Assembly (NCBI GenBank): GCA_015222055.1
Contig: JADFUR010000004.1
Coordinates: forward strand, 1-64,000
Length of the DNA stretch: 64,000 nt
Source: Bacteroidota bacterium
GTDB lineage: Bacteria > Bacteroidota > Bacteroidia > Bacteroidales > B39-G9
Direction: 5' to 3'
Every line of letters begins with the position of its first letter. Position 1 is the stretch's first letter. The notes under the pieces are model-generated. The model was not told where the DNA came from, ran no database searches, and saw only the letters and a program-made list of their open reading frames with translations. Position numbers and translations under genes: made by a program. Below, in pieces: positions 1 to 39,526 of this stretch.

Positions 1-92
1 ATAAACAATTTCACTCGGCTTGCTTCTTTAGCGCATTGATAAGATTACTCTTTGAATTGCCCACGAAACTTAGCAAGACCGTTGTACGTCAT
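1..92. repeat. Right part of an attC-like spacer ending in GTTGTACGTCAT
   Basis: This non-coding stretch ends at 81-92 with GTTGTACGTCAT, the same kind of GTT-initiated boundary found before other modules further on. Short complementary arms (CTTGCT near 20 and AGCAAG near 72) suggest a foldable structure whose left part lies outside the window. The sequence supports only the boundary and the partial hairpin. That it is a recombination site is inferred from the better-preserved elements at 9598-9796 and 10965-11350. Confidence 0.35.
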
Positions 93-2721: not shown

Positions 2722-2730
2722 CTAATTACT

Positions 2731-3106
2731 CCACACAACCCCTAAGAATATAAAAAAACTGTAGAGCAAGGTCTGCTACAGCTTTTATATTCGTTGTTGA
2801 GCGAAACCAAAGCTAGCGAATTGTTAGTTATGAAGGTGATTTGAGCCAGTATGTAATTCTAATAATTTTTGTTTTTGTATAGAGTTCTGATTTTAGTACA
2901 AACTTTTGATTAATTTCACCTGCTAATGTGCGTTTGCATGGTATTCCATAAAAACATAACAACATATTAATATATCTATTTAACTCAATTACTGCTCTTT
3001 AACATCTAAAATAAATCCCAAAACTGATTATTTTTTTATAAATTTACTTCTTTGTTAAACAAATATATAATGGATATAAACGGAATAGTCCGTTTATTTA
3101 TTTGTT
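2731..3106 (+). repeat. Intergenic repeat copy 1, ends at the GTTGGCAAC boundary before the peptide locus
   Basis: This is the first of three near-identical ~375-bp non-coding copies (others at 8500-8874 and 10965-11350). It begins CCACACAACCCCTAAG and carries a hairpin with CTGTAG (2759-2764) and CTACAG (2776-2781) followed by T residues, which could terminate the preceding gene. An AT-rich core at 3022-3049 and a small inverted repeat (AAACGGA/TCCGTTT) near the right end follow. It ends exactly where module-specific sequence begins, at GTTGGCAACA (3104). No open frame is conserved among the copies, so it is not an insertion sequence with its own transposase. Confidence 0.8.
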
Positions 3107-3151
3107 GGCAACAAGGCAAGAACAGTCAGTGCGTTTAAAAAATAATTGATT

Positions 3152-3493
3152 ATGGAAAAGAAATTTATTACTATTAAAATTGGAATAAATAGATACCGAA
3201 AAGTGTTTTTAGACGATATTTTATATTGTAAGGCAGATAGAGCTTACTCGATAATTCAAACAAAAGATTCTAAATATACTTTTTGCGAACCTTTAAAAAA
3301 CCTTGAATCTTTATTTGAGATGCATGATTCTTTTTTACATGTAAATCGTAGTTTTATTGTAAACTTGACAAAATGTATAGAATTTAAAACAGGTACAAAA
3401 TCAGAGTTAATTATAGAAAATGGAGCAATTATACTCCCAAATCAAGAAGCGTTAGAGCAAATAATGATATTTTTTAACCTTTCTAAAAATTGA
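3152..3493 (+). CDS. Stand-alone LytTR DNA-binding regulator
   Basis: A 113-residue protein that is almost entirely one LytTR domain. The family pattern is visible: an opening strand, DDILYCKADRAYSII, then FLHVNRSFIVNL, where the His-x-Asn-Arg-Ser/Tyr segment is the hallmark, and a closing segment ending LPNQEALEQI. There is no receiver, sensor or membrane domain, so any signal must act on the domain directly or through another protein. I chose ATG 3152 over the TTG at 3146 because it matches the usual length. It lies directly upstream of the RiPP precursor. The twin repeats at 3525-3555 just before the precursor promoter are the obvious candidate target. Confidence 0.88.
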   Translation: MEKKFITIKIGINRYRKVFLDDILYCKADRAYSIIQTKDSKYTFCEPLKNLESLFEMHDSFLHVNRSFIVNLTKCIEFKTGTKSELIIENGAIILPNQEALEQIMIFFNLSKN

Positions 3494-3524
3494 TATTTAC
3501 TGTTTTGTACCTCAAACTTGCAGT

Positions 3525-3555
3525 TTCGGAAAGTGTAGTTGCTGATTCGGAAAGT
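3525..3555 (+). promoter_or_regulatory. Putative LytTR operator: two TTCGGAAAGT direct repeats 21 bp apart
   Basis: TTCGGAAAGT occurs at 3525-3534 and again at 3546-3555. The similarity extends over 19 bp (C.G.TTCGGAAAGT.TAGT, 3521-3539 and 3542-3560). The 21-bp period puts both copies on one face of the helix, which is how characterised LytTR proteins such as AgrA bind paired ~9-10-bp sites. The second repeat ends 13 bp before the -33 element of the precursor promoter, an activator-like position. The link to the adjacent LytTR gene is inferred. Confidence 0.7.
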
Positions 3556-3568
3556 TTAGTAAAAATGG

Positions 3569-3600
3569 TTTGTATAGTCCTTAAAATCACATCATATTTG
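3569..3600 (+). promoter_or_regulatory. Bacteroidota-type promoter of the RiPP precursor
   Basis: TTTG at 3569-3572 and CATATTTG at 3593-3600 are separated by 20 bases. The Bacteroidota consensus is TTTG, 19-21 bases, then TAnnTTTG, so only the first base of the -7 box deviates. Transcription would begin near 3606, giving a leader of about 37 bases before the ATG at 3643. A weak -7 box fits a promoter that needs an activator. Confidence 0.65.
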
Positions 3601-3642
3601 CAGTGTTAATTTATTTCATAAACTTTTTTTAAATTTAATACA

Positions 3643-3822
3643 ATGGAAAAAATTCAAAAATTTGAGAACTGCAAAATTCAAAATATGCAGGAGATTAAAG
3701 GTGGTAGATGTGTAGATAAGTATGATTCAGGTTGTGGACATACAGATAAAACAATTTATGATGGTTGTGGTAATGAAAAAAGAGTAGTTACAAACATCGA
3801 ACATTGGTTTTATAGAGATTAA
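3643..3822 (+). CDS. RiPP precursor peptide with GG-type leader, grasp-with-spasm type
   Basis: This short gene encodes 59 residues. The N-terminal part (residues 1-21, beginning MEKIQKFENCKI and ending EIKGG) looks like the double-glycine leaders of Bacteroidota natural-product precursors. The presumed core (22-59) has three cysteines (23, 31, 42), four aspartates (25, 28, 35, 40), Thr34, Thr37 and Thr50, and Lys36 and Lys46. These are suitable donors and acceptors for ester or amide crosslinks made by an ATP-grasp enzyme. GCGHTDKTIYDGCGNEK holds a near-repeat of GCG..D/E. A LytTR-type operator and promoter precede it and a terminator follows. Cleavage after GG and the crosslink chemistry are inferred from the family. 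Confidence 0.82.
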   Translation: MEKIQKFENCKIQNMQEIKGGRCVDKYDSGCGHTDKTIYDGCGNEKRVVTNIEHWFYRD

Positions 3823-3833
3823 TCTTTCACGAT

Positions 3834-3863
3834 AAAAGGCTGCTCTAATCGACAGCCTTTTTT
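3834..3863 (+). terminator. Intrinsic terminator/attenuator after the precursor
   Basis: AAAAGGCTG (3834-3842) pairs perfectly with CAGCCTTTT (3853-3861) around a 10-base loop and runs into a T tract. It sits between the precursor and the enzyme genes. Partial read-through would give far more precursor mRNA than enzyme mRNA, a common arrangement in RiPP operons. Confidence 0.85.
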
Positions 3864-3897
3864 ATTATAAATGTGTAAAATAATTCCAATTATGAGA

Positions 3898-5049
3898 ATG
3901 AAACATTATAAGTTTTTAATTGTATTATTAGTATTCTTTCAAACTACATTTGCACAAACAAAGAATAATTATTACTTATTATTAAGAAATGCAGAAAAAA
4001 AAATTGTAAACAATCAGCTTGATTCATCATTGGTAAATTATAATCAGGCATTTGTAAAATATAATTACCCTTTTGTAAGAGATATTACTGCTGCTGCGTG
4101 TGTGGCCCATTTTGCTAATGACACTAATTGTCTATATAGATACATTGAAATACTCTTAAAAAGAGGGATGTCTTTAGTGGAGTTAGATTATTTCATTCAG
4201 AAAAGACCAAATGATAAAAAGCTATTAGTTTATAAAGATAAGTTCACAACTTATCAAAATTATTATCTTTCTTCAATTGATAAGGAATTAGAAAAGGAAT
4301 TAAGATATTTGGATAAAAAAAATCAAATAGACTTAGCTTATGTTCGTATTCATTATAAAACAGAAATAGATAAATTTAAATCTACACAAAGGAAAAAATT
4401 TTATGATACATTAGTTGCTAAATATATATATTTAATACATCAATACGGAATACTTTCTGAAAAAGAGATAGGTTTAGGTTCTAGTATCTTTTTAAGATGG
4501 ACAAATGATAAAAATAATACTTTTCATAAAGATATAATTTATGAATATATAGATTCTCCAGATATAAGAGAGAACAAAAAAGATTCTGTTTTTTTTGGTT
4601 ATAGCTATATTAAAAATAGAAGCATTTACAAATCATACACAAGACCAGGTAACTCTTTTTTGTGGCATGTAAATTTGGATAATTATCCAAATTTAGATAG
4701 CTTGTTAAAGACACGGTTAAATACACTAAAAATATATCCCAATTTTTATGCGGCATGCCATGAGCGTTCAAAGGGAGGTATGAAAGCGTCTGAGGATTAT
4801 TGTATTGCATGGGAATCTGCAACTAAACAAAAGTATCATTTTGATTTAAAAAAAATAATTGAAGCACCTGAAGCAGAACAAATAAATAAACTTAGGGCAA
4901 GTATTTATATTAGAAGTTTACAAGAAGATTTAGCATTATTCGAAGCATTACAAAAATTGGAAAATCTTAAATACAAACACTATTTTAAACTTAGAGCTAA
5001 AGGTAATAGTTTATTTTTTAATGTTTTGTTTACTCGTGTAATGCCATAA
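3898..5049 (+). CDS. Exported protein of unknown function in the RiPP locus
   Basis: I do not recognise a named domain. The start at 3898 gives a clean signal peptide (MKHYKFLIVLLVFFQTTFAQ); ATGs at 3871 and 3892 would add residues before it. The mature part is about 365 residues, mostly helical-looking. The segment ending with two acidic/aromatic repeats (NAEKKIVNNQLDSSLVNY) could be TPR-like. A Cys/His-containing stretch (ACHERSKGGMKASEDYC) lies near residue 290. The gene ends 2 bp before the ATP-grasp gene, so it is clearly in the operon. A periplasmic role in handling or sensing the peptide is possible, but no evidence in the sequence singles it out. Confidence 0.75.
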   Translation: MKHYKFLIVLLVFFQTTFAQTKNNYYLLLRNAEKKIVNNQLDSSLVNYNQAFVKYNYPFVRDITAAACVAHFANDTNCLYRYIEILLKRGMSLVELDYFIQKRPNDKKLLVYKDKFTTYQNYYLSSIDKELEKELRYLDKKNQIDLAYVRIHYKTEIDKFKSTQRKKFYDTLVAKYIYLIHQYGILSEKEIGLGSSIFLRWTNDKNNTFHKDIIYEYIDSPDIRENKKDSVFFGYSYIKNRSIYKSYTRPGNSFLWHVNLDNYPNLDSLLKTRLNTLKIYPNFYAACHERSKGGMKASEDYCIAWESATKQKYHFDLKKIIEAPEAEQINKLRASIYIRSLQEDLALFEALQKLENLKYKHYFKLRAKGNSLFFNVLFTRVMP

Positions 5050-5051
5050 AT

Positions 5052-6035
5052 ATGATATTAATAATTTCAATAGAAGATGATTATTCAACAAACGATGTTG
5101 TTGATTGGCTTAGTTTATTCAATAAAAAAGTTTTGCGTATTAATAATGAAACATCTATAGACAAAATTAATATTGAATCAAAAAACAATGGTTTTTCAAT
5201 ATCATTTACTTATAAAAACAATGAATATTCTGTTAATGAGTTTAGTCATTTTTGGTTTAGAAAAGGAAAACTAAATTTTGATAATATAATAGATATTATT
5301 TCGAAAAATAATAGTAGAGATATTGATAAAGGGATATACTCTCATCTTTTATTTGAAGAACTTAAAACGATAGAGCAATATTTTATTTATTTTTTGGAAC
5401 TAAAAAACAAACTTGGAAGCTACTATCAGGGGGATACAAATAAATTAAAAAGTTTAGCCATTGCTCAAAATATTGGATTAACAATTCCTAAATCTTTTGT
5501 TTTTTCACAAAAGATTAAATTAATAAAAGCATTTAATATATCTAATGAATTTATCACAAAAGGAATTCAAGGCATACTATCTTTCGGTTCCGATAATCTT
5601 GGTTTTAATAATAAAACTGAATTAATAAATAAGATAGATATTGATGAAATGGATAATAATTTTTTCCCTTCGTTTTTTCAAAAAAATATACCTAAACTAT
5701 ACGAACTAAGGATTTTCTATCTTGTTGGAGAATTCTATTCAATGGCAATCTTTTCACAAGAAGACGAACAAACCAAAATAGATTTTAGAAATTATAATTA
5801 TGAAAATCCTAATAGAACAGTACCGTATAAACTTCCTTTACAAATTGAAACTAGACTTGATTTATTCATGAAAAAAATGGATTTAGATACAGGCTCAATA
5901 GATATGATTGTAACACCTGATTTGGAATATATATTCCTCGAAGTTAATCCAGTTGGTCAATACGGTATGACATCTATCCCGTGTAATTATTATTTAGATG
6001 AAAAAATCGCAAAATACTTAGCAAATGAAAAGTGA
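5052..6035 (+). CDS. gwsG: ATP-grasp peptide maturase (grasp-with-spasm, GwsG type)
   Basis: This 327-residue protein has the layout of RiPP ATP-grasp ligases. An N-terminal substrate-binding half includes EFSHFWFRKGK. A central ATP-binding part has FITKGIQGILSFGS, and ELRIFYLVGEFYSMAIFSQ follows. The C-terminal metal-binding strand is FLEVNPVGQYG (295-305), in which Glu and Asn bind Mg-ATP. The family activates side-chain carboxylates of Asp/Glu in the precursor core and joins them to Ser/Thr/Lys, giving ester or amide macrocycles. It overlaps the next small gene by 11 bp and lies beside a SPASM gene, the defining pair of grasp-with-spasm loci. The actual linkage is not readable from sequence. 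Confidence 0.88.
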   Translation: MILIISIEDDYSTNDVVDWLSLFNKKVLRINNETSIDKINIESKNNGFSISFTYKNNEYSVNEFSHFWFRKGKLNFDNIIDIISKNNSRDIDKGIYSHLLFEELKTIEQYFIYFLELKNKLGSYYQGDTNKLKSLAIAQNIGLTIPKSFVFSQKIKLIKAFNISNEFITKGIQGILSFGSDNLGFNNKTELINKIDIDEMDNNFFPSFFQKNIPKLYELRIFYLVGEFYSMAIFSQEDEQTKIDFRNYNYENPNRTVPYKLPLQIETRLDLFMKKMDLDTGSIDMIVTPDLEYIFLEVNPVGQYGMTSIPCNYYLDEKIAKYLANEK

Positions 6036-6219
6036 AAAGAATTTTTTAGAAATTATTGGAGATACTAACAATAGGAAATATCCTTTAAATTATAAATTTG
6101 TAGAAATAAAGGAAATGCCAAAAGAAGTAAAAAACAGAAAATATATAAATATTGCTTTGTACCAAACAAATAAATATGAACCGAGTTCGTATCATAAACC
6201 TATTTCCAAACTATTGTAA
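6025..6219 (+). CDS. Small unknown protein between the ATP-grasp and SPASM genes
   Basis: This 64-residue frame overlaps the end of the ATP-grasp gene by 11 bp and shares one base with the SPASM gene (TAATG at 6217-6221). That strongly suggests coupled translation and a real gene. It is basic and tyrosine-rich (EIKEMPKEVKNRKYINIALY) with no signal peptide, double glycine or cysteine. I cannot assign a family. A recognition or scaffold subunit for the two maturases is one possibility. A second modified peptide is less likely because a GG leader is absent. Confidence 0.62.
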   Translation: MKSEKNFLEIIGDTNNRKYPLNYKFVEIKEMPKEVKNRKYINIALYQTNKYEPSSYHKPISKLL

Positions 6220-7298
6220 TGAAACAAGAATACATTAAATTATATTCAAATTGTATGCCTGTAAAAGGATACAAACAATCATTTATAGTTGACTTACAAA
6301 GAGGAGGGGCGTCAAATGCCATTCCAAACAGCTTGTTTGAAATTATTGATAAGTATCCAAATAAAACATTAGATAAAATTAAAAAAGAATATAATAATAA
6401 GTATGATGAAATAATTGATGATTATTTTCAATTTTTATTAAAAAATGAATTTGCATTTAAATGCTCGAAACAAGAATTAGAAACCTTCCCAGAGTTAGAT
6501 TTAACATGGAAATCCGCTTCTATAATTGAAAATGCTATTGTAGATATTTCAACATTAAAAGAAACGACAATTAAAAAAATTATTTCAGAACTATCAGAGC
6601 TGAGATGTAATGCACTACAAATACGTTTTGAAAAAGTGTGTTCACTTAATGATCTTAAAAAAATAGGTTTATTATTAGAAAATACACGGATTTTAACAGT
6701 TGAAATTTTTATTAAATATTCAGAAGAAACAACATTTGAAACATTAATCTATTTAACAGATAAATTTCCTCGTTTTCAAAGAATATATATTTATAATAGT
6801 CTGAAAAACGAAATGAGTTCGTGTTCAAAAATTATATTTGATAAAAAAGACATAAACCCATCAAAAGATTGTGGTGTTATTTCAAGTCATAATTTTGTTA
6901 TAAATATTGAAACATTTACAGAATCGCAATGCTTCAATACGTGTTTAAATCGTAAAATAAGTATAGACTCAAAAGGTTATGTAAAGAATTGTCCAAGTAT
7001 GCAAAATGATTATGGTAATATTTCTAATACAAAACTGTTAGATATAGTTGAAAAAACTAATTTTAAAGATTATTGGACAGTAAATAAAGATAAAATTGAT
7101 GTTTGTCAAGATTGTGAATTTAGGCATATATGCACAGATTGCAGAGCATTTATAAGGGATTCGAAAAATATTTATTCCCAACCTACAAAATGTGATTACA
7201 ATCCATATATTGCACTTTGGAAAGGTCAAAAAAATTGGATAAGTGTTGAACAATGGAGAGAAGAAAATCCACATTGGAAAGATAAAGTAAATATTTAA
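6219..7298 (+). CDS. gwsS: SPASM-domain peptide maturase (grasp-with-spasm, GwsS type) lacking the radical-SAM cluster motif
   Basis: This 359-residue protein has a C-terminal SPASM-like cysteine set: CFNTC, then NCPSM, then CQDCEFRHICTDC (296-308) and Cys325, suited to bind auxiliary Fe-S clusters. The N-terminal half resembles a degenerate radical-SAM barrel, but no CxxxCxxC occurs anywhere, so it cannot bind the usual SAM cluster. This appears to be the normal form in grasp-with-spasm systems, where the protein may recognise or hold the precursor instead of doing radical chemistry. It is the last gene of the operon. The module boundary GTTGCCAACAA follows 52 bp later. Confidence 0.85.
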   Translation: MKQEYIKLYSNCMPVKGYKQSFIVDLQRGGASNAIPNSLFEIIDKYPNKTLDKIKKEYNNKYDEIIDDYFQFLLKNEFAFKCSKQELETFPELDLTWKSASIIENAIVDISTLKETTIKKIISELSELRCNALQIRFEKVCSLNDLKKIGLLLENTRILTVEIFIKYSEETTFETLIYLTDKFPRFQRIYIYNSLKNEMSSCSKIIFDKKDINPSKDCGVISSHNFVINIETFTESQCFNTCLNRKISIDSKGYVKNCPSMQNDYGNISNTKLLDIVEKTNFKDYWTVNKDKIDVCQDCEFRHICTDCRAFIRDSKNIYSQPTKCDYNPYIALWKGQKNWISVEQWREENPHWKDKVNI

Positions 7299-7350
7299 TT
7301 ATAATTTTGTCACAAAGTTTATTATAATTAATAAGGGCAAATAAAGCCCA

Positions 7351-7510
7351 GTTGCCAACAATGCATCATAAAACATAAGGGCGACAGTGGTTTACGGAGC
7401 TTTTGTGCGTTTAATCACACTCGCTAAATTTGCAATTTGACAAGTTGATTAAAAAGTTTAAATTTGTGTCTAATCGCAAACTTGAGATAAGCTTATAAAA
7501 ACTAAAAAAA
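7351..7510 (+). repeat. Spacer beginning with GTTGCCAACAA, complementary to the start of the peptide module
   Basis: GTTGCCAACAA at 7351-7361 is the exact reverse complement of TTGTTGGCAAC at 3102-3112. The two bracket the LytTR-precursor-enzyme block. The rest of the spacer is non-coding, is not homologous to the ~375-bp repeat, and contains TGCGTTTAATC and CTAATCGCAAAC, which could pair in part. No right-hand GTT boundary is visible before the next gene. I interpret it as a worn or truncated attC-like element. Confidence 0.5.
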
Positions 7511-7516
7511 ATTAAA

Positions 7517-8497
7517 ATGAATAAAATATTTACAATTACCTTTTTTTTATTTGTCGTTTTAAGTAATAGTTTTTCCCAAACAAAAATAAAAGGTGAAATT
7601 TTAGGGGAAAATAAAAGGATTTATCTTTCTACTGAGAGCTCTTTAATTCCATTAACAATAGAAAACCACAAATTTAGTTTAGAAGTGGAAAAAGGTAAAT
7701 CTCCTATATCAATATCTTTTGCATTAATCTCAAAAAAAGGAAAGATTAGCTATTTAACTCCCAAAATATGGATGGATTCAGATTCTGTAAATATAAAATT
7801 AGATTTTTCAAATGAACAAGTTAAATATGAAATAGACAATAGGTATATTTTTCAGAATCTTTCAGAAAAAATAGAAAAATCAGATAAAAAGGATCAAATT
7901 AAATTAATAAGAAATAATTTAGATAAGTATCCTGCTTTATTCTTTTTATATAAAAAAATGGAAGACGTAAATATAAAAGTTCTTTCATCTTTATATACAC
8001 TTATTTTAGAAAGAAACAAGTTGTGTTTTTATGCTCAACGAATCAAAGGATACATTGATGCAAAAAAATTAAAAACTCCTAAAAAAGGAAAGCAGTTTGA
8101 ATCATTTAGATTAGAAGATAAAAATGGAAAAATTATCAATATATATAACCAATCTGAAAAATATAAACTTTTAGCTTTCATGTCATCTGCTTGTTATTAT
8201 TCCTTATCCTCACTTTCTGAATTATCAGAACTATATGAAAAGTATAATACAGAAATAGAGTTCATTACAATATGGAATGATAAGAAAAAAAACACTTGGC
8301 AAAATTATAAAGCGAAATTAAAATCAGTTGTTGTATGGACTGATTTATGGGATAAAACAAACTTTGCTCATACTTATTTTGACATAACAATCTCTCCGTC
8401 ATTTATTTTAGTAAATAAAGAAGGAGTTATAATAAAAATAATAAGAGGTTTCGACTGCGAAAAATTGAAAAGGACTGTAATTAAAAATATTAAATAA
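7517..8497 (+). CDS. Exported thioredoxin-fold (TlpA/AhpC-like) protein with a single active-site cysteine
   Basis: A signal peptide (MNKIFTITFFLFVVLSNSFSQ) precedes an N-terminal DUF4369-like strand region (KIKGEILGENKRIYLS) and a C-terminal thioredoxin-like domain from about residue 190. The active-site loop reads SSACYYSLSS, with Cys226 and Ser229. The second cysteine of the usual CxxC is therefore a serine, and no other cysteine is placed to resolve it. ISPSFILVNKEG is the conserved cis-Pro strand. The protein would be periplasmic, and with one Cys might act as an isomerase, peroxidase or trap rather than a classical reductase. It follows the peptide locus but lies beyond its boundary repeat, so a shared role is uncertain. 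Confidence 0.75.
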   Translation: MNKIFTITFFLFVVLSNSFSQTKIKGEILGENKRIYLSTESSLIPLTIENHKFSLEVEKGKSPISISFALISKKGKISYLTPKIWMDSDSVNIKLDFSNEQVKYEIDNRYIFQNLSEKIEKSDKKDQIKLIRNNLDKYPALFFLYKKMEDVNIKVLSSLYTLILERNKLCFYAQRIKGYIDAKKLKTPKKGKQFESFRLEDKNGKIINIYNQSEKYKLLAFMSSACYYSLSSLSELSELYEKYNTEIEFITIWNDKKKNTWQNYKAKLKSVVVWTDLWDKTNFAHTYFDITISPSFILVNKEGVIIKIIRGFDCEKLKRTVIKNIK

Positions 8498-8499
8498 TT

Positions 8500-8874
8500 C
8501 CACACAACCCCTAAGAATATAAAAAAACTGTAGAGCAAGGTCTACTACAGCTTTTATATTCGTTGTTGAGCGAAACAAAGGTAGCTGATTGATTATTATG
8601 ATGGTGATTTGAGCCAGTATGTAATTCTAATAATTTTTGTTTTTGTATAGAGTTTTGATTTTAGTACAAACTTTTGATTAATTTCACCTGCTAATGTGCG
8701 TTTGCATGGTATTCCATAAAAACATAACAATATATTAATATATCTATTTAACTCAATTGCTGCTCTTTAACATCTAAAATAAATCCCAAAACTGATTATT
8801 TTTTTATAAATTTACTTTTTTGTTAGACAAATATATAATGGATATAAACGGAATAGTAGGTTTATTTAATTGTT
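8500..8874 (+). repeat. Intergenic repeat copy 2, ends at GTTAGCCTTT before the DCL-family gene
   Basis: This second copy of the ~375-bp repeat is nearly identical to 2731-3106 through most of its length, including the CTGTAG/CTACAG hairpin near its left end, the core AACTGATTATTTTTTTATAA, and the AT-rich right end. It diverges only in the last bases before the boundary GTTAGCC at 8872. Copies 1 and 2 also share the left-end bases CCACACAAC although different genes precede them. Confidence 0.85.
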
Positions 8875-8891
8875 AGCCTTTATTAAAGAAG

Positions 8892-9596
8892 ATGAGAAAG
8901 TCAATCAAAATAGGAGATAGAGAGTTTAAGTTTAAAAAAGATGCATTATTGCATTTTAAAAAAATCCTGAACGCTTATGATTTTGGAGAAAGCTTGTCGG
9001 GTCAAGATTTGAATGATATGTCTGCATTGGTTTATAAAGCAAAAGCAGATGATGAAAGAGTAAAGACTGGTATAAAAGAAATCAAAATTGGAAAAGTTCA
9101 GTATGGAACCAAATGTTTTGAAGTAATTTTCAACAATGAAACTATTGATATTTTTTCATATACATTGGCGATTAATGGAGATAGGAAACCAATAACGAAG
9201 TTTACAAATGCATGTAGAAATGCGATACAGGATGATTTATATGGAGTTAAGCAGAAATTTTTTGACTCCAACTCAAAAAAGGGAAAAGTAAAATGTCAAG
9301 AAACTGGTATTCTAAGTTCTTGGACAGAATTAAATGTTGACCATAGGCAACCAAATACATTATCTGTTATTTTAGACAGGTTTATCGAGCTTAACAATAT
9401 TGATTTGAAAGAAATTGAATATGAGAAAGAAGATGATAATAAAATTGTACTGTCCGACAAATTATTAGAAAAGAAATTCCGAGATTATCATATGGAAAAG
9501 GCAAATCTAAGAATAGTGCGTAAGGAAAATAATCTTGGACGTTCTCATCAAGGACGAATAAAAAAACAAAAGAAAGATTTAAGAATTGACGAATAA
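8892..9596 (+). CDS. DCL/DUF3223-family protein with HNH-like C-terminal part
   Basis: The N-terminal ~125 residues match the DCL (DUF3223) pattern: FKFKKDALLHFKKILNAYDF, then GKVQYGTKCFEVIF and IDIFSYTLAINGD. The C-terminal part has CQETG, NVDHRQPNT and, near the end, KANLRIVRKENNLGRSH. These resemble the Cys/His-Asp-His-Asn elements of HNH nucleases, although the metal-binding set is not complete to my eye. Plant DCL proteins act in rRNA maturation; bacterial and phage members are uncharacterised, and a nuclease role is inference. The module is bracketed by a perfect 14-bp inverted repeat (8868-8881 and 9598-9611). AAAGAAG just before the ATG could serve as ribosome-binding site. Confidence 0.75.
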   Translation: MRKSIKIGDREFKFKKDALLHFKKILNAYDFGESLSGQDLNDMSALVYKAKADDERVKTGIKEIKIGKVQYGTKCFEVIFNNETIDIFSYTLAINGDRKPITKFTNACRNAIQDDLYGVKQKFFDSNSKKGKVKCQETGILSSWTELNVDHRQPNTLSVILDRFIELNNIDLKEIEYEKEDDNKIVLSDKLLEKKFRDYHMEKANLRIVRKENNLGRSHQGRIKKQKKDLRIDE

Positions 9597-9597
9597 C

Positions 9598-9796
9598 AAA
9601 GGCTAACAATTTGTAAACGTAATGCGAGTAAACCTTCTGTATGAAAGGGCTGCGGTATTAATTAACCCCGCAAATTTAATTTCTTAACGAAATGAAATTT
9701 GTAATAGCGGTGTTAAAAAATTAAATTCGCTACTTAGTAAACTGTAAGAGTGGAAAGCTTTAATTTCGCACTACGCTTACAATAACGTTATAGGGC
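9598..9796 (+). repeat. Hairpin-rich attC-like spacer between the DCL-family and Fic genes
   Basis: It starts with AAAGGCTAACAATT (9598-9611), the perfect reverse complement of the module start at 8868-8881, and ends at GTTATAGGGC (9787-9796), where the Fic module begins. The outer arms pair imperfectly but at length: TAAC..TTGTAA.CGTA.TGCG (9604-9626) with CGCACTACGCTTACAATAACGTTA (9767-9790). An inner stem joins AAATTTAATTTC to GAAATGAAATTT around TTAAC. A ~190-base imperfect palindrome with R''/R'-like ends is the layout of an integron attC site. Only homology of ends and folding is seen; recombination is inferred. Confidence 0.6.
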
Positions 9797-9810
9797 ATCT
9801 AAAAAAACGT

Positions 9811-9890
9811 CTCAATATCGCATAATATAAGCTCATATCGTATCATTATTTTCGGGTAATTATCGAATAAAAACGGCTCATATCGTATCA
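9811..9890 (+). promoter_or_regulatory. Cluster of TATCG repeats upstream of the Fic gene, possible operator
   Basis: GCTCATATCGTATCA occurs identically at 9831-9845 and 9876-9890. A related copy CTCAATATCGCATAA lies at 9811-9825 and TTATCGAATAA at 9860-9870. All lie within 110 bp of the Fic start. The Fic protein has a C-terminal winged helix-turn-helix, so binding here for autoregulation is plausible but unproven. Confidence 0.5.
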
Positions 9891-9918
9891 AATCAAAGTT
9901 TTATTGTATCTTAGCCTT

Positions 9919-10959
9919 ATGGAAAACTCTGTACATACGTTTAGACTAAATATTGATTGGAAACTTATTAAACTGATAAGTCAAATTGATAGGTTTGATG
10001 CTTCGTGGTCTTCTATCGAAAAAAAAGAAGGACAGAGTTTAAAACAATTAAAAACAATTGCTACGGTTCGAAGTGTTGGAGCATCAACAAGGATTGAAGG
10101 CTCTAAAATGTCTAACGAAGAAGTTGAAGTGTTGCTTAAAGAAATTGACATCACTAAAATTGCTGATAGAGATTCACAAGAAGTAGTTGGATACTTCGAA
10201 ACATTAGATTTAATCTCGGAATCTTTTGAAAACATTTCAATTACCGAAAGTAGCTTAAAAAATCTACATAACATTTTACTTAAACACAGCAAAAAGGACG
10301 AATGGCACAAAGGAGATTATAAGCAACACAGCAATGTTGTAGAAGCAAAGTTACCCGATGGAACACGACAAGTTATATTTCAAACAACGGAAGCTGGATT
10401 TCCTACGCAAGATGCGATGGGACAGTTAATAGATTGGTATTTTAATGACAAAGAAACTCATCCATTAGTAAAATGTGCATTGTTTACTTATGAATTTGTA
10501 AGCATTCATCCTTTTCAAGACGGAAACGGAAGATTAAGCAGATTACTTTCTACCCTGCTTCTTTTAAAAAATGGATATAAATGGGTTCAGTATGTGAGCT
10601 TCGAACACGAAATTGAAAGTAGAAAAACCGAATATTATCGAGTATTAAGGAGTTGTCAGGCACATAGACCAAACGAAGATGTAACTGAATGGATTCAATT
10701 CTTTTTTAATGCACTCGGAAATATTCAAAAACAATTAATTATAAAACTTAAAAGCAAAGGTGTTGAAACAAGGTTGTCGCCACGCGAAAAATCGATTTTA
10801 ATATTTATTGAAAATAATGCAGGTTGTAAATCTGGACAGATTGCTAAACGACTTGGAATTCCAAGTCCAACGGTTAAAAGAATTTTACCAGAATTGATAA
10901 AACAAAACTTAATTGAAAAATTTGGTATAGGACCAGGAACTAATTATTCAATAAAATAA
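9919..10959 (+). CDS. Fic-family AMP-transferase with C-terminal winged helix
   Basis: The Fic core motif HPFQDGNGRLSR (197-208) is intact, including the catalytic His and the Arg that binds ATP phosphates. The inhibitory motif [S/T]xxxE[G/N] is present as STRIEG at 56-61, N-terminal to the core, which places it in class II, self-inhibited by Glu60. The last ~65 residues (LSPREKSILIFIENN..., SGQIAKRLGIPSPTVKRIL) form a winged helix-turn-helix. The family transfers AMP to protein hydroxyls; targets cannot be read from the sequence. ATG 9919 was chosen over an upstream TTG. The gene is alone in its module, with no separate antitoxin, as expected for class II. Confidence 0.93.
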   Translation: MENSVHTFRLNIDWKLIKLISQIDRFDASWSSIEKKEGQSLKQLKTIATVRSVGASTRIEGSKMSNEEVEVLLKEIDITKIADRDSQEVVGYFETLDLISESFENISITESSLKNLHNILLKHSKKDEWHKGDYKQHSNVVEAKLPDGTRQVIFQTTEAGFPTQDAMGQLIDWYFNDKETHPLVKCALFTYEFVSIHPFQDGNGRLSRLLSTLLLLKNGYKWVQYVSFEHEIESRKTEYYRVLRSCQAHRPNEDVTEWIQFFFNALGNIQKQLIIKLKSKGVETRLSPREKSILIFIENNAGCKSGQIAKRLGIPSPTVKRILPELIKQNLIEKFGIGPGTNYSIK

Positions 10960-10964
10960 AAAAG

Positions 10965-11350
10965 CCCTACAACACCTAAGAATAAAAAAAATTGTAGAGC
11001 AAGGTCTGCGACAGCTTTTATATTCGTTGTTGAGCGAAACCAAAGGTAGCGGATTGATTATTATGATGGTGATTTGAGCCAGTATGTAATTCTAATAATT
11101 TTTGTTTTTGTATAGAGTTTTTATTTTAGTATAAACTTTTGATTAATTTCACCTGCTAATGTGCGTTTGCATGGTATTCCATAAAAACATAAAATATATT
11201 AATATATGTATTTAACACAATTACTGCTCTTTAACATCTAAAATAAATCCCAAAACTGATTATTTTTTTATAAATTTACTTCTTTATTAACTTATAAGCT
11301 AAACAAATATATAATGGAAATAAACGGAATAGTCCGTTTATATAATTGTT
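10965..11350 (+). repeat. Intergenic repeat copy 3, ends at GTTAGGTGCA before the sigma-factor gene
   Basis: This third copy of the ~375-bp repeat carries an extra ~10-bp insertion near the right end. GCCCTACAAC at 10964-10973 is, with one mismatch, the reverse complement of the Fic module start GTTATAGGGC (9787-9796). The next bases CACCTAAGAAT.A are largely complementary to the right end ATAATTGTTAGGTG. Of all boundaries in this region, GTTAGGT at 11348 is the only one fully matching the integron core GTTRRRY. Confidence 0.82.
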
Positions 11351-11490
11351 AGGTGCATTAGAGCGGGCCTGATAAACTGGGATGAGTTAGCTTAATATTC
11401 TGTACTAAAATTTTATTTTTTTTCAAAAAAACACACTTTATTTTGTCACAAATAAGCAATTACGATAGACTTATAATAAAAGAGGATTAA

Positions 11491-15943: not shown

Positions 15944-17055
15944 TGTTTTTTAAGTATATTTTTAATCGGAATTAGTTGTTTTATATCCATATTGGCATTT
16001 AAAGAAAAACGTAATCTTGCAGTTCCTTTTGGCACTGTTGGGTATCTTATTGGCAAAATTGTAAAACCATTTTGTTTTAGTTCAATTGATTTATCAATAG
16101 CATTTTTATTTGTGCCAATAATAAATGGAATTATATGGCTTTGCGTTTCCCTGTTTAGCATTTTGGCAAATTGCATACTAAGAGACTTTAATTTTTCCCT
16201 TTCCTGATTTAATTCTGGTAATTTTTTTAAAATATATATTGTCCATGCTATATTTATTGGCGGTAAAGCTGTTGTGAAAATAAGTGATCGGGAATGGTTA
16301 ATAAGGTATTGTCTAAATAGATTACTACAAATTACAAAAGCACCAATTGATGCTATTGCTTTTCCAAAAGTTCCTACTATAAAATCGATTTCATTTATAA
16401 CTTGAGATTCTTCAACACAACCAAGTCCATTATTTCCTCTAACACCAAAAGCATGGGCTTCGTCAATATATAATAAGCAATTATACTTTTGTTTTAGTTC
16501 AATCAGCCTTTCTAAGTCGGCAATATCACCATCCATGCTAAAAATACTTTCGCTAATAATAAAAACGTTTTCATAATTTTTTCTGTTCTTTTTTAGAATA
16601 TTTTCAAGATGCAAATAATCTAAATGCTTGAATCTAATTACTGTTGCATTACTTAATTTCGCACCGTCAATTATACTTGCGTGAACGAGCTTGTCGGCTA
16701 TTATCAAATCCTTTTTAGATGCTAGTGCTGATATAATTCCCACATTGGCATGGTATCCGCTGTTATATAAAAGACAAGCTTCTGATTGATAACTATCGGC
16801 AAGTAGTTTTTCAAGTTTTGTGTGCTCAATAGAATTACCACTAAGAAGTCGCGACGAGCATGAACTAAATTTGTATGTTTTGCGCTTAAATTCGGCTAAA
16901 AAATTGTCGTGAAATTCTTTATTGCTATTCAAACCCAAATAATCGTTTGAACATAAATTGAGTAGATTTCCAGAATCACTTTCAGGAAAAGAACGATAGT
17001 TGTCGTTAGCTTTTAGAGTTTCTAATATTTCTCTGTATCTATTTAGCGTTTCCAT
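15940..17055 (-). CDS. bioF: 8-amino-7-oxononanoate synthase
   Basis: BioF is the PLP enzyme that condenses pimeloyl-ACP with alanine. [20 protein letters not shown] (GxG-type acyl-binding area), [12 protein letters not shown], and the lysine in [10 protein letters not shown] (the Schiff base residue) are all present. At 371 residues it is the usual length. It overlaps bioA by 17 bp and bioG by 4 bp. Confidence 0.95.
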
Positions 17056-18334
17056 AAAGTTTTATTATTGTTTTAGATATTCCTGAAGTGAGCTTTAATA
17101 ATTCGCTATTTGAGATAATAAAAGGAGGCATTGTATATATAAGTTTTCCAAAAGGACGCATCCAAATCCCCTGTTTTGTAAATTCTTTTTGAATTTCATC
17201 CATATTTACTGGGTTTTTCATTTCAACAACACCAATAGCTCCCATAACTCTCACATTGCTAACAGCTTCTAGCTTTTCCAATTCGGGTAAGCTATCATTG
17301 AAATGCTTTTCTATTCGTTTAATATTGCTTTCCCAATTGCTTTTCAAAAGCAAATTAATACTAGCCAATGCAACCGAGCATGCCAAAGGATTGCCCATAA
17401 AAGTAGGTCCGTGCATAAAAATTCCCGGCGATGCATTAGAGATAGTTGTTGCAACATCACTACTGCAAAGTGTAGCTGCAAAAGATAAATAACCACCGGT
17501 AAGTGCTTTCCCAATACATAAAATGTCGGGCGATATGTTTGCATGTTCGCAAGCAAACAGCTTTCCTGTTCGCCCAAATCCCGTGGCTATTTCATCGGCA
17601 ATAAGCAAAACATTATATTTAGTGCATAAATTTCTTACTGCTTTCAGGTAGTTAGGATGATAAAATCGCATTCCTCCAGCTCCTTGAACTATAGGTTCGA
17701 GAATGAAAGCCGCAATATCCCCATTTTTCTTGGCAAGAAATTCTTCAACAGGTTTAATTTCATCGGGATCAAATTTATCATGAAATTTAGATTTAGGGGC
17801 CGGTAAAAAATTTTGTATTGATAATTTATTATTAAAAATATGGTGCATTCCTGTTTCGGGGTCGCAAACAGACATAGCATGCCATGTATCGCCATGATAA
17901 CCATTCTTGATGGTAAGAAATTGGTTCTTTAAATTTTTGTCTTTTGCATGCCAATATTGCAAAGCCATTTTCATTGCAACTTCAACGGCAACCGAACCGG
18001 AATCACTGTAAAATATATGCTCTAAACCTTTGGGAACAATGCTCAAAAGAGATTTCGTCAATTCAATGGCAGGTCGGTGAGTTAAGCCACCGAACATAAC
18101 ATGTGTCATGTTTTCGGTCTGTTTTTTTATGGCCTTATTTAATTCCGAATTGTTATAACCATGAATGACTGACCACCAACTCGACATTCCATCGATTAAT
18201 TTACTGCCGTCTTCTAATTCGATATAAACTCCATTCGCTTTTTTCACAACAAGACAATCTTGTGGTTTTGTGGCGGAAGTATATGGGTGCCAAATATGTT
18301 TTTTGTCAAATTCTATAAGTTCTTTATTATTCAT
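17039..18334 (-). CDS. bioA: Adenosylmethionine-8-amino-7-oxononanoate aminotransferase
   Basis: BioA transfers the amino group of SAM to 8-amino-7-oxononanoate. The class III aminotransferase features are present: HIWHPYTSA near the N terminus, [11 protein letters not shown], and the PLP lysine in [25 protein letters not shown] is the cofactor-phosphate segment. Full length at 431 residues. It starts 3 bp after bioB. Confidence 0.95.
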
Positions 18335-18337
18335 AAG

Positions 18338-19297
18338 TTATGCAATTTTAAATCCGGCATTTGTAAAATCTCTAATATCGTCATCAATATTCGAACCAAT
18401 AGTTGTTAGGTAATCTCCTGTTATTGCAGCATTAATTCCTGCCCGTAAAGCTTTTTTTTGAAATTTTTTTATTTGAAGTCTTCCGCCTGCAAAACGTAAA
18501 TTTGCCTTTGGATTTAAAAAACGGATAATAGCTATTGTTGTAAGTATTTCCTCTTCGCTAAGTGCTTCTGTGTTTTCTAATGGTGTCCCTTTAACAGGAG
18601 AAAGTATATTTATAGGAATAGATTGCACTGCTAAATTTCTCAATATAATGGCTAATTCTATGCGTTGCTCCATAGTTTCTCCCATTCCAATAATACCACC
18701 GGAACAAACTTTAATACCTAATTTTTGAGCTGTTTTAATAACTTCAATCTTTTCGTCAATAGTATGAGTTGTTACTAAATTTGTGAAATATGATGGTGCT
18801 GTTTCCAAATTACAATGATAATGTTCAATATTTGCTTCTGTTTTTAATCGCTTAAGTTGATCTTCGCTAATCAATCCCATTGATGCACATAAATTAATAT
18901 CGCTTTTGCTTTTAATTGCCTTATAAATTGAGATAAGATTATCAAGTGTTTTGTCGCTTACACTCCTTCCGCTTGTTACCAGCGAGTGACTTTTTACTCC
19001 TTTGGCGGCATTGCTGAGAGCCATTTTTACAGTCTCTTCTTTGTCAACTATTTCATACTCTTCAATATCTGTTTCGTAATGTGCTGATTGGCTACACCAT
19101 TTACAATCTTCCGAACAGACACCTGATTTGGCATTTGTTATTGAACATAAGTCTATTACATTACCGCAAAAGTGCTCACGAATTTCATCAGCGGCTTTGT
19201 ACAGAGATTCTTTGTTTTTTGTCTTACTAAGATTTACGGCTTCATCGTAGCTAAGAGCAATGCCTGCCAATACTTTTTGTTTGAATGTTTCTATCAT
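18338..19297 (-). CDS. bioB: Biotin synthase
   Basis: BioB is the radical-SAM enzyme that inserts sulfur into dethiobiotin. The cluster motif is CSEDCKWC (Cys61, Cys65, Cys68), followed by SQSAHY. NILSPVKGTPLEN and FAGGRLQ are conserved downstream segments. At 319 residues it is full length. It is the first of the six biotin genes, all on the minus strand with overlaps or 3-bp gaps, so all are surely co-transcribed. No BirA-type operator palindrome was seen. Confidence 0.96.
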   Translation of the reverse strand: MIETFKQKVLAGIALSYDEAVNLSKTKNKESLYKAADEIREHFCGNVIDLCSITNAKSGVCSEDCKWCSQSAHYETDIEEYEIVDKEETVKMALSNAAKGVKSHSLVTSGRSVSDKTLDNLISIYKAIKSKSDINLCASMGLISEDQLKRLKTEANIEHYHCNLETAPSYFTNLVTTHTIDEKIEVIKTAQKLGIKVCSGGIIGMGETMEQRIELAIILRNLAVQSIPINILSPVKGTPLENTEALSEEEILTTIAIIRFLNPKANLRFAGGRLQIKKFQKKALRAGINAAITGDYLTTIGSNIDDDIRDFTNAGFKIA

Positions 19298-19325
19298 AAC
19301 TTTTAATTAAAAAAAAATCCATATT

Positions 19326-19664
19326 CTACAATGTGTAAAATATGGACTGAATCAAATTATATATATTTAATTTTGTTGAATTATATTCTTCATTAATTTT
19401 AATAATTCCTAATTCTATTAATAATATCTCTAACCATTCAGAAAAGAATGTTTCTGTTTCAATATCTTCGTTTTCAACAGGTTCTGTATTATTTATTAAT
19501 TTATTAAGGCTGGTTTTTTTCTTACTAAAAAACGACATACAAGTATCAAAAGAAAGATGACCAATGCTCACAATTTTACCAAGGCTTGCAAAAACGGCAT
19601 AGCTTTTTCTTGTCCATCTTGAGAAAACAATACTCCTTTGATTTATTTTATGTTGATATTTCAT
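19326..19664 (-). CDS. Small conserved Bacteroidota protein of unknown function upstream of bioB
   Basis: About 112 residues from ATG 19664, with a conserved N-terminal stretch FSRWTRKSYAVFASLGK and a mostly acidic C-terminus. The RW(S/T)RKxYAxFxSLG motif recurs in small Bacteroidota proteins that I recall near vitamin and TonB-linked loci; I cannot name a function. It ends 28 bp before bioB on the same strand and probably shares its transcript. A role tied to biotin handling is inferred only from position. Confidence 0.6.
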   Translation of the reverse strand: MKYQHKINQRSIVFSRWTRKSYAVFASLGKIVSIGHLSFDTCMSFFSKKKTSLNKLINNTEPVENEDIETETFFSEWLEILLIELGIIKINEEYNSTKLNIYNLIQSIFYTL

Positions 19665-22015: not shown

Positions 22016-22399
22016 ATGTTTTTTAATTTAAAAGAAGGTATTAAAAACGAACAATCAAAAATTGTCTCAGAAAATGATACTGCAGTAGCTTTTGGTTCTG
22101 GTTTAGTAAATGTTTTTTCAACGCCTTCCCTTGTTGCATTAATGGAAAATACAGCGTATAAAAGCGTAGAAAATATTTTACCTAAAGGGTTTTCAACAGT
22201 TGGAATAGAAATAAATATAAAACACAAAAAGGCAACACTTCCCGGTCAAAAAGTTACTTGTAAATCTATTGTATCAAAAGTTGATGGAAAGAAAATATTT
22301 TTCCAAATTTTAGCTTTTGATAAAAATGGAGAAATAGGAATTGCCTCTCACATAAGATATATTATTGATGAAAAAAAATTTATGGATAATTTACAATAA
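22016..22399 (+). CDS. Hotdog-fold thioesterase, FlK-like
   Basis: This 127-residue protein matches the FlK-type (fluoroacetyl-CoA thioesterase-like) hotdog family. FSTPSLVALMENTA carries the Thr and Glu of the active site. FSTVGIEINIKHKKATLPGQKV carries the His-containing strand, and ILAFDKNGEIGIASHIRYII ends the fold. In bacteria lacking fluoroacetate these are small acyl-CoA thioesterases of unclear substrate. The end overlaps the start of the next gene by 32 bp. Confidence 0.82.
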   Translation: MFFNLKEGIKNEQSKIVSENDTAVAFGSGLVNVFSTPSLVALMENTAYKSVENILPKGFSTVGIEINIKHKKATLPGQKVTCKSIVSKVDGKKIFFQILAFDKNGEIGIASHIRYIIDEKKFMDNLQ

Positions 22400-31881: not shown

Positions 31882-31924
31882 GATTGTATCGTGTAACTTT
31901 TATTTAATAACAATAACATCATTA
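31882..31924. repeat. Left copy of a 43-bp direct repeat flanking the caspase island
   Basis: Starts GATTGTATCGTGTAAC and ends ACATCATTA. It is identical to 39430-39472, about 7.55 kb away, and similarity decays over a further ~40 bp. Together the copies bracket the whole caspase operon. They could be att-type ends of a mobile island, or two copies of a dispersed repeat. Confidence 0.75.
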
Positions 31925-32336
31925 AACATCCCTTTTTCCTATAGTTTTTTAAACTACTATAAATATAATCTTCAGATTGAAAATAAAGTGTAAATTGTAA
32001 TAGGATTAAGAACTAAAAAGTGTAAACTAAATTCATTTTTAGATAAAACTCTGTTTTTTAACAGTTAAGAAAAATCGCACAACTGTTTATTTTTTTATAA
32101 ATTTACTTTTTAATTAACTTAAACAAACACAGATAGAGGATATAAGATGCAGTGGTGTGTCTTATTGAAGTGTTAGCAAAGAAGAACATAATCAAACGTA
32201 TTTAATGGCTTTAAATGGCTTGTCAACAGTTACATAAGATTGCAAAAGCATACAAGCCATCGTTTTTTTATAATATGTTAAACGCAACGAATTGACTTTT
32301 GACAACGACATAAACGCACAGATTGATTTTTTTATA

Positions 32337-39429: not shown

Positions 39430-39472
39430 GATTGTATCGTGTAACTTTTATTTAATAACAATAACATCATTA
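39430..39472. repeat. Right copy of the 43-bp direct repeat flanking the caspase island
   Basis: It is identical to 31882-31924 and lies after the last gene of the caspase operon, before the convergent ATPase gene. Similarity with the left copy continues, less exactly, to about 39510. Confidence 0.75.
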
Positions 39473-39526
39473 TACATACCTTTTCTCAATAGTTTATTTT
39501 GCAAACTTAAACATCCGAGCATTAAT

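Follow-up and report, generated by a model that had tools for sequence, protein, structure and literature searches.

A probable integron-like gene-cassette array associated with a tyrosine recombinase outside the IntI family in a Bacteroidales genome

Introduction

Integrons are defined by the integrase IntI and its special insertion, and the tools that search for them seek both, so that an integron-like system built around another recombinase would be missed. The insertion, of the I2 type, is thought to be an adaptation to single-stranded substrates. Here we analyse a stretch of 64,000 nucleotides, called the window, from the genome of a Bacteroidota bacterium (order Bacteroidales, assembly GCA_015222055.1, contig JADFUR010000004.1, positions 1 to 64,000), which very probably carries part of an integron-like gene-cassette array with a dedicated tyrosine recombinase other than IntI.

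In the described systems, IntI uses the folded bottom strand of attC (PMC8618304, PMC4792948). An IntI-specific additional domain has been placed around patch III (Messier and Roy 2001, as cited in PMC9668308), and the IntI-specific insertion is named I2 in PMC4792948. The integron of the Treponema denticola type has a genuine intI gene, and its recombinase is oriented as in the present system (PMC3607928). PMC9668308 and PMC8618304 touch on integrons in Bacteroidota only in passing, and a search of the open-access literature, which leaves aside preprints and most subscription journals, turned up no account of Bacteroidia cassette arrays with a recombinase other than IntI.

The arrays described below resemble a chromosomal integron (IntI/attI/attC, such as the Vibrio superintegron) in their tandem, mostly single-open-reading-frame (ORF) cassettes on one strand, each with its own hairpin site, in a GTT core, in a cassette start complementary to its own R'' end, in a bias of folding toward the bottom strand, and in a recombinase at one end. 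They differ from it in that the recombinase lies outside the IntI clade, lacks the IntI-specific insertion of about 40 amino acids, has an extra N-terminal domain and is transcribed toward the array; not being IntI, it also sets them apart from the T. denticola type. The boundaries are complementary, the sites covary, cassettes are shared between genomes with breakpoints at the core, single-gene cassettes stand in tandem on the same strand, and the 3' end of the recombinase gene abuts the array. We class the system as integron-like in its workings but outside the IntI family.

Results

Cassette starts pair with their own ends

An earlier note on this sequence had pointed to three boundary pairs, and all of them are present: TTGTTGGCAAC at 3102 with GTTGCCAACAA at 7351 (11 of 11 bases), AATTGTTAGCCTTT at 8868 with AAAGGCTAACAATT at 9598 (14 of 14) and GTTATAGGGC at 9787 with GCCCTACAAC at 10964 (9 of 10). 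Its further observations also hold: every annotatable gene within 3102-11357 is on the + strand, and the segment 9598-9796 folds as a long hairpin, slightly better on the bottom strand than on the top (-27.9 versus -25.2 kcal/mol).

A repeat of about 380 bp, called family B, is present in three copies in the window (2730-3109, 8497-8880 and 10969-11352) and is matched, completely or partially, at 45 places in the genome. Its left edge reads [YYYAAC]ACCTAAGAATATAAAA... and its right edge ...TTTATTTAATTG or ...GTGTCTTATTTAGGTG, each followed by TT and then by copy-specific bases. We chose 17 right-hand edges of this family by their constant part only, ignoring the variable bases, and searched up to 6 kb downstream for a perfect 9-nt complement including AAC, with the tags of the other edges as control; the test was confined to strict edges, since looser regular expressions proved too noisy. 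The complement of the edge's own tag was found for 10 of the 17 edges, against 8 of 270 for swapped tags (p = 8e-10). Pairing is far above that of swapped tags, and the possibility raised in the earlier note, that boundary pairs occur at chance frequency around random genes, is not borne out. Three of the ten matched pairs come from a compact array on contig C43 (L051) and have both edges from one repeat family; in others, the end is from a different site family (AACATTGGGTCATAAAACATGCGG, AACAATGTATAAAAATAATAGC, AACACGCAATATG and others), as expected if each cassette has its own site.

The same relation was found outside this genome. At locus L136, the complementarity between the start and end of a cassette spans about 20 nt, interrupted by a constant mismatch at positions 10-11, and none of 100,000 permutations of own and swapped ends among its 17 cassettes reached the observed score. 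Pairing in five other genomes typically covers 9-10 nt, a mismatch and then 3 nt; 22 cassettes from these genomes gave 109 matches out of 132 when 64 were expected (0 of 100,000 permutations), with cores placed under a length constraint and a few cores at locus L183 still misplaced, which lowers the observed score. A search of all loci for 20-nt inverted repeats returned chiefly the L136 type and a few in L134 and L122; since pairing in most systems covers 9-10 nt plus 3, it was not kept as a general detector. This complementarity over 9-20 nt with a fixed mismatch is unlike that of the chromosomal integron.

Comparison of 48 cores, all of which contain GTT by design since the sites were located through it, showed A or G at position 4, mostly A or C at position 10, A at position 11 (92%) and T at position 12 (81%). 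The resulting consensus is GTTR-N6-[A/C]AT (CGTTR[GT]NNNN[A/C]AT-like), not the GTTRRRY of the chromosomal integron, which fits 2 of the 48 cores; the poor fit to GTTRRRY that had been entered as a caveat is a genuine property of the system. The window cores at 81, 8872 and 9787 obey the new rule, for example GTTAGCCTTTATT and GTTATAGGGCATC.

Sites are kept as hairpins

Covariation was measured on the sites of Rufibacter, written as in the excised cassette circle. Paired cells made up 92.4% of the pair cells compared with 74% in shuffled sites, double changes numbered 51 when 17 were expected, and the covariation score was 0.469, compared with 0.124 for shuffled and at most 0.07 for slid versions. 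The outer stem is fully variable save for GTT/AAC, and its pairing is nonetheless kept. Judging from this covariation, the sites are conserved as a folded hairpin and not as a sequence. Single-strand folding with DNA parameters predicted the bottom strand to be the more stable in 34 of 40 sites from three array types (10 of 11, 12 of 17 and 12 of 12). An Rfam search of L136, L183, L185 and the window gave no attC family, the sole match being one Flavo-1 RNA.

The pairing and covariation bear on a reading in which the boundaries are transposon-like, REP-like (repetitive extragenic palindrome), MITE-like (miniature inverted-repeat transposable element) or terminator/promoter repeats that flank genes by chance, or the inverted-repeat ends of composite transposons. 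The family-B repeat is dispersed and combines a terminator-like hairpin with a promoter-like AT-rich part, as such elements might. However, the complementary ends vary between cassettes yet match their own partner, different site families stand side by side and each moves with its own cassette, the inner stems covary, and a recombinase heads the arrays, which together make this reading highly improbable.

The recombinase is outside the IntI clade

A search of the genome with the integron-integrase model TIGR02249 led to a tyrosine recombinase of 379 amino acids at the extreme end of contig C26. The core AAGTGTTAGCGGTC lies 72 bp past its stop codon, and the 33 nt before this core match the right ends of family B; in GTTAGCGG, at the same 72 bp, the last ~33 nt are common to local sites. 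The C26 core reads as an attI-like junction, beyond which the contig holds no more than the opening bases of a first cassette. The earlier remark that no integrase is in view is answered: C26 has a recombinase next to an attI-like site, although the enzyme is not an IntI.

The C26 recombinase scored 197.6 bits against TIGR02249, below the cut-off of 265, and 227.8 bits against NF040815 (site-specific tyrosine recombinase/integron integrase), above the cut-off of 220. In a maximum-likelihood tree of 77 proteins, 39 array-type recombinases, all from Bacteroidia, formed one clade (97/96), which was not nested in the separate IntI clade (100/100). Recombinases with a similar N-terminal extension from a Spirochaetota metagenome-assembled genome (L198) and an Undinarchaeales one (L200) are sister to the Bacteroidia clade. 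The catalytic residues are invariant within this clade, and the spacing from KGxxDR to HxLRHS is about 64, compared with 106 in IntI and 72 in Xer, a few larger values within the clade being motif mis-hits. This spacing shows that the IntI-specific insertion is absent, and the clade uses either another device or a different reaction. An extra N-terminal domain is present in one to three copies (alignment A1), and its predicted structure is a confident one (pLDDT 86.5). The XerA/NF040815 proteins (PDB 5hxy, 4a8e) share the core-binding and catalytic domains, the C26 score being just over their cut-off; unlike them, the array recombinases have the N-terminal extension, an association with cassette arrays and an IntI-like, SPLD-like C-terminal tail.

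These results also bear on whether a canonical IntI, since lost or located elsewhere, built the arrays, with the C26 recombinase unrelated to them. The window, having sites and cassettes with no recombinase, does resemble a CALIN (a cluster of attC sites lacking an integrase), the architecture and mechanism are integron-like, and IntI is frequent in other classes of the phylum (cut-off passed in 105 of 396 genomes). On the other side, no IntI scored over the cut-off in this genome, and IntI is nearly absent from Bacteroidia, the matching genomes including a single one labelled as of the same class. A non-IntI recombinase stands directly upstream of arrays in several families, and, unlike in a CALIN, the cognate recombinase type is not IntI and the site core is not canonical. 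We consider an ordinary integron very unlikely.

Arrays lie downstream of the recombinase

Relatives of the C26 recombinase are common in the order, with about 95 of 295 sampled species (hand count, at least 189 bits). Hand counting from the order-wide search also showed that the 3' end of the gene lay at most 500 bp from the end of its contig in 25 of 56 minus-strand matches, compared with 5 of 52 for the 5' ends of plus-strand matches (p = 7e-5); this excess suggests repeats just downstream. In genome G283 (L136), the recombinase is followed by 18 sites in the same orientation, mostly with 121-124 bp from AAC to core. Alignment A1 of the recombinases was used to find the following named genomes, with sites downstream of the recombinase and in the same orientation:

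Rufibacter sp. SYSU D00344 (L183): 13 sites
Algibacter onchidii (L185): 7 sites
Seonamhaeicola aphaedonensis (L177): 4 sites
Winogradskyella ursingii (L171): 3 sites
Flavobacteriaceae S0862 (L169): 3 sites

A cassette detector was set to require a 9-nt match to the cassette's own end, two of three matches at positions 12-14 and a hairpin. It reported 40 cassettes from 366 kb of sequence downstream of recombinases, none from 166 kb upstream and 1 from a reversed control. The first cassette frequently begins 37-130 bp past the stop codon of the recombinase, and across the arrays studied, 38 of 40 longest ORFs lay on the array strand. Arrays were located in Flavobacteriaceae, in Hymenobacteraceae and in the order of this genome.

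One candidate was rejected: on the plasmid of Persicobacter sp. JZB09 (CP012862, L168) the recombinase is close, but the repeats nearby are group II intron-like and not clear sites. These 2.5-kb repeats (16922-19467 and 22365-24906; also left of 815 in L263) start directly after attC-like left arms (CCGCCAATA...) and recall the introns that target attC in classical integrons.

The position of the cassettes is relevant to a further possibility, that the recombinase merely resolves or shuffles existing arrays, in maintenance or dimer resolution, and captures nothing new. Its score over the cut-off of the XerA-type model, and the fact that XerA, along with IntI, lies closest to its model, would suit such a role. 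The genome, however, has separate XerC/XerD-like proteins (C41, C12), and cassettes that begin right past the recombinase stop, together with foreign site types, point to capture; a role confined to resolution or shuffling is very unlikely.

Cassettes are shared between genomes

Other families have the Fic cassette of the window too, at 71-81% identity. The similarity to genome G096 (L263) runs exactly from 9786 to 10974 of the window, and the Fic gene there is bounded by CC followed by GTTGTAGGGC on one side and by GACCTACAAC on the other, beside sequences of other types. In genome G033 (L264), the left border is CC followed by GTTGTAGAC, after yet another site type, and in several further genomes the Fic gene lies outside recognisable cassettes. 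The breakpoints at GTT/AAC that the earlier note had sought between strains were found for this cassette between species. On contig C97 (L040, 7230-7928), this genome has a cassette whose site is of the G283-array type (AACATCGGGTCATAAAACATGCGGG), which suggests, from the likeness of the sites, exchange of cassettes between families. When the window flanks were compared directly within the same family, no usable empty site emerged, and a scan of viral contigs by exact pattern for the boundary at 8868 found nothing.

Layout of the window

The sites, cassettes and genes of the window, all on the + strand, are as follows:

1..83, right-hand part of an attC-like site; core ACC followed by GTTGTACGTCAT, GTT at 81-83, fitting the core consensus; the contig (C14) begins inside the site
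2731..3104, long attC-like site of family B; R'' CCACACAAC ... TTTATTTG followed by TTGG; the 45 genome-wide matches; 95% to 8497-8880
3105..7359, RiPP (ribosomally synthesised and post-translationally modified peptide) cassette; starts TTGGCAAC, ends GTTGCCAAC, its own 9-nt complement
3149-3493, LytTR regulator gene (LytTR match), RiPP cassette
3643-3822, precursor-like ORF of the GG type, 59 amino acids, RiPP cassette
between the precursor-like ORF and the ATP-grasp gene, ORF of 392 amino acids, RiPP cassette
5052-6035, grasp-with-spasm ATP-grasp maturase gene, RiPP cassette
between the two maturase genes, small ORF, RiPP cassette
6219-7298, SPASM maturase gene, RiPP cassette
7351..7487, attC-like site of the RiPP cassette, truncated, without right arm
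7517..8497, thioredoxin-like/redoxin gene (Pfam Thioredoxin_8), a cassette remnant with its left border lost
8500..8872, long attC-like site of family B, serving the redoxin gene; end AATTG followed by TTAGCC
8873..9787, DCL-type cassette; DUF3223 gene at 8892-9596 (DUF3223 8.6e-9); own end 9 of 9
9598-9787, attC-like site of the DCL-type cassette, 190 bp, of a sequence family other than B; predicted hairpin TTGTAAACGTAATGCGA / TTCGCACTACGCTTACAA
9788..11348, Fic cassette; Fic and winged-helix gene at 9919-10959 (Fic 1.6e-15); own family-B site at 10964-11348
11348..11360, last core GTTAGGTGCATTAG, preceding sigma/anti-sigma genes
32038..32174, solo right half of a family-B site; core GTGTTAGCAAAG (GTT at 32172)

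The RiPP cassette resembles the grasp-with-spasm system (TIGR04192/TIGR04193), since both maturases score over the cut-off (334 and 312 bits, respectively) and a GG-type precursor-like ORF is present; unlike the usual form, it is a single multi-gene cassette of 4.2 kb. A grasp-with-spasm operon with a LytTR regulator makes a cassette that is unusually large, and unusually rich in genes, for systems of this kind. About 131 bp of its site recur in seven genomes (G191, G085, G117, G082, G097, G024 and G186), and the G191 copy is intact and runs on to CCCTTACGTTTTATATGCGAGTC followed by GTTAGGC. Because the site at 7351-7487 has lost its right arm, the redoxin gene has no clean left border, and a search upstream of this gene for the cassette start GTTGTGTGG found none. 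No matching end for the last core was found within 6 kb downstream, and the array therefore ends or decays there.

Each of the family-B sites at 2731-3104 and 8500-8872 combines a terminator-like hairpin (CTGTAGAGCAAGGTCTGCTACAG) with an AT-rich, promoter-like stretch, and may terminate the transcript of one cassette and start that of the next. A 69-nt direct repeat (31882-31950 and 39430-39498, 91%) was not recognised as part of a cassette site.

Discussion

The earlier proposal that this Bacteroidota genome contains a cassette system is supported by the boundaries, the folding of the sites, the recombinase and the shared cassettes; the separate recombinase clade and its spread through Bacteroidia were not foreseen in the earlier note. 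In such a system, each cassette would consist of a gene, or operon, and its own hairpin-forming attC-like site. Crossover would most likely fall between G and TT of the conserved GTT core; as a result, the opening ~9 nt of each cassette (TTRNNNNNN) complement the last nucleotides before its own site (...AAC). The recombinase would bind the folded, probably bottom, strand of the site of an excised cassette, align it with the attI-like site past its own stop codon, cut the core and insert the cassette, and new cassettes would consequently enter beside the recombinase. The platform would be that of contig C26, and the window holds recombinase-free segments with the RiPP operon and the redoxin, DCL-type and Fic genes.

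The recombinase would act without the IntI-specific insertion. The N-terminal domain, weakly HARP/XPB-DRD-like, may be what recognises folded or branched DNA, and the place of recognition is perhaps the extended outer stem (9 bp, a 2-nt mismatch, then 3-10 bp). We hypothesise that the domain is a candidate for the device that replaces the insertion.

Several observations weigh against this interpretation. Seven of the 17 family-B edges had no matching end, through decay, other site types or assembly breaks. The C26 platform and the window do not share a contig, the end of C26 interrupts the array there, and attI is defined solely by position. At about 160-390 bp, this genome's family-B sites are unusually long, and they show no clear bottom-strand bias. 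Mobility is deduced from sequence. The match of the N-terminal domain to Pfam HARP (PF07443) is weak (best E 0.01, 4 of 18 members), and its Foldseek matches, to XPB (E 0.18) and the SMARCAL1 HARP domain (E 0.61 and 0.74), are not significant; the top entries of the fold search, XPB, MutS-beta and SMARCAL1 HARP, are readers of DNA structure, likewise without significance, and the N-terminal profile gave nothing significant against PDB sequences.

With moderate confidence, we propose that these arrays belong to a second class of integron, which evolved separately and dominates in Bacteroidia. Its recombinases, outside the IntI clade, would act on folded single-stranded hairpin sites with, in place of the I2-type insertion, one to three N-terminal domains that recognise DNA structure and read the extended outer stem. 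If true, two lineages would have reached this state by different routes, which would make the adaptation of Xer-like recombinases to folded single-stranded sites testable. The arrays open a large set of unread cassette genes (RiPPs, Fic proteins and many unknowns) along with a path by which Bacteroidia exchange genes, and they suggest that the mechanism of gene capture evolved in more than one form in bacteria.

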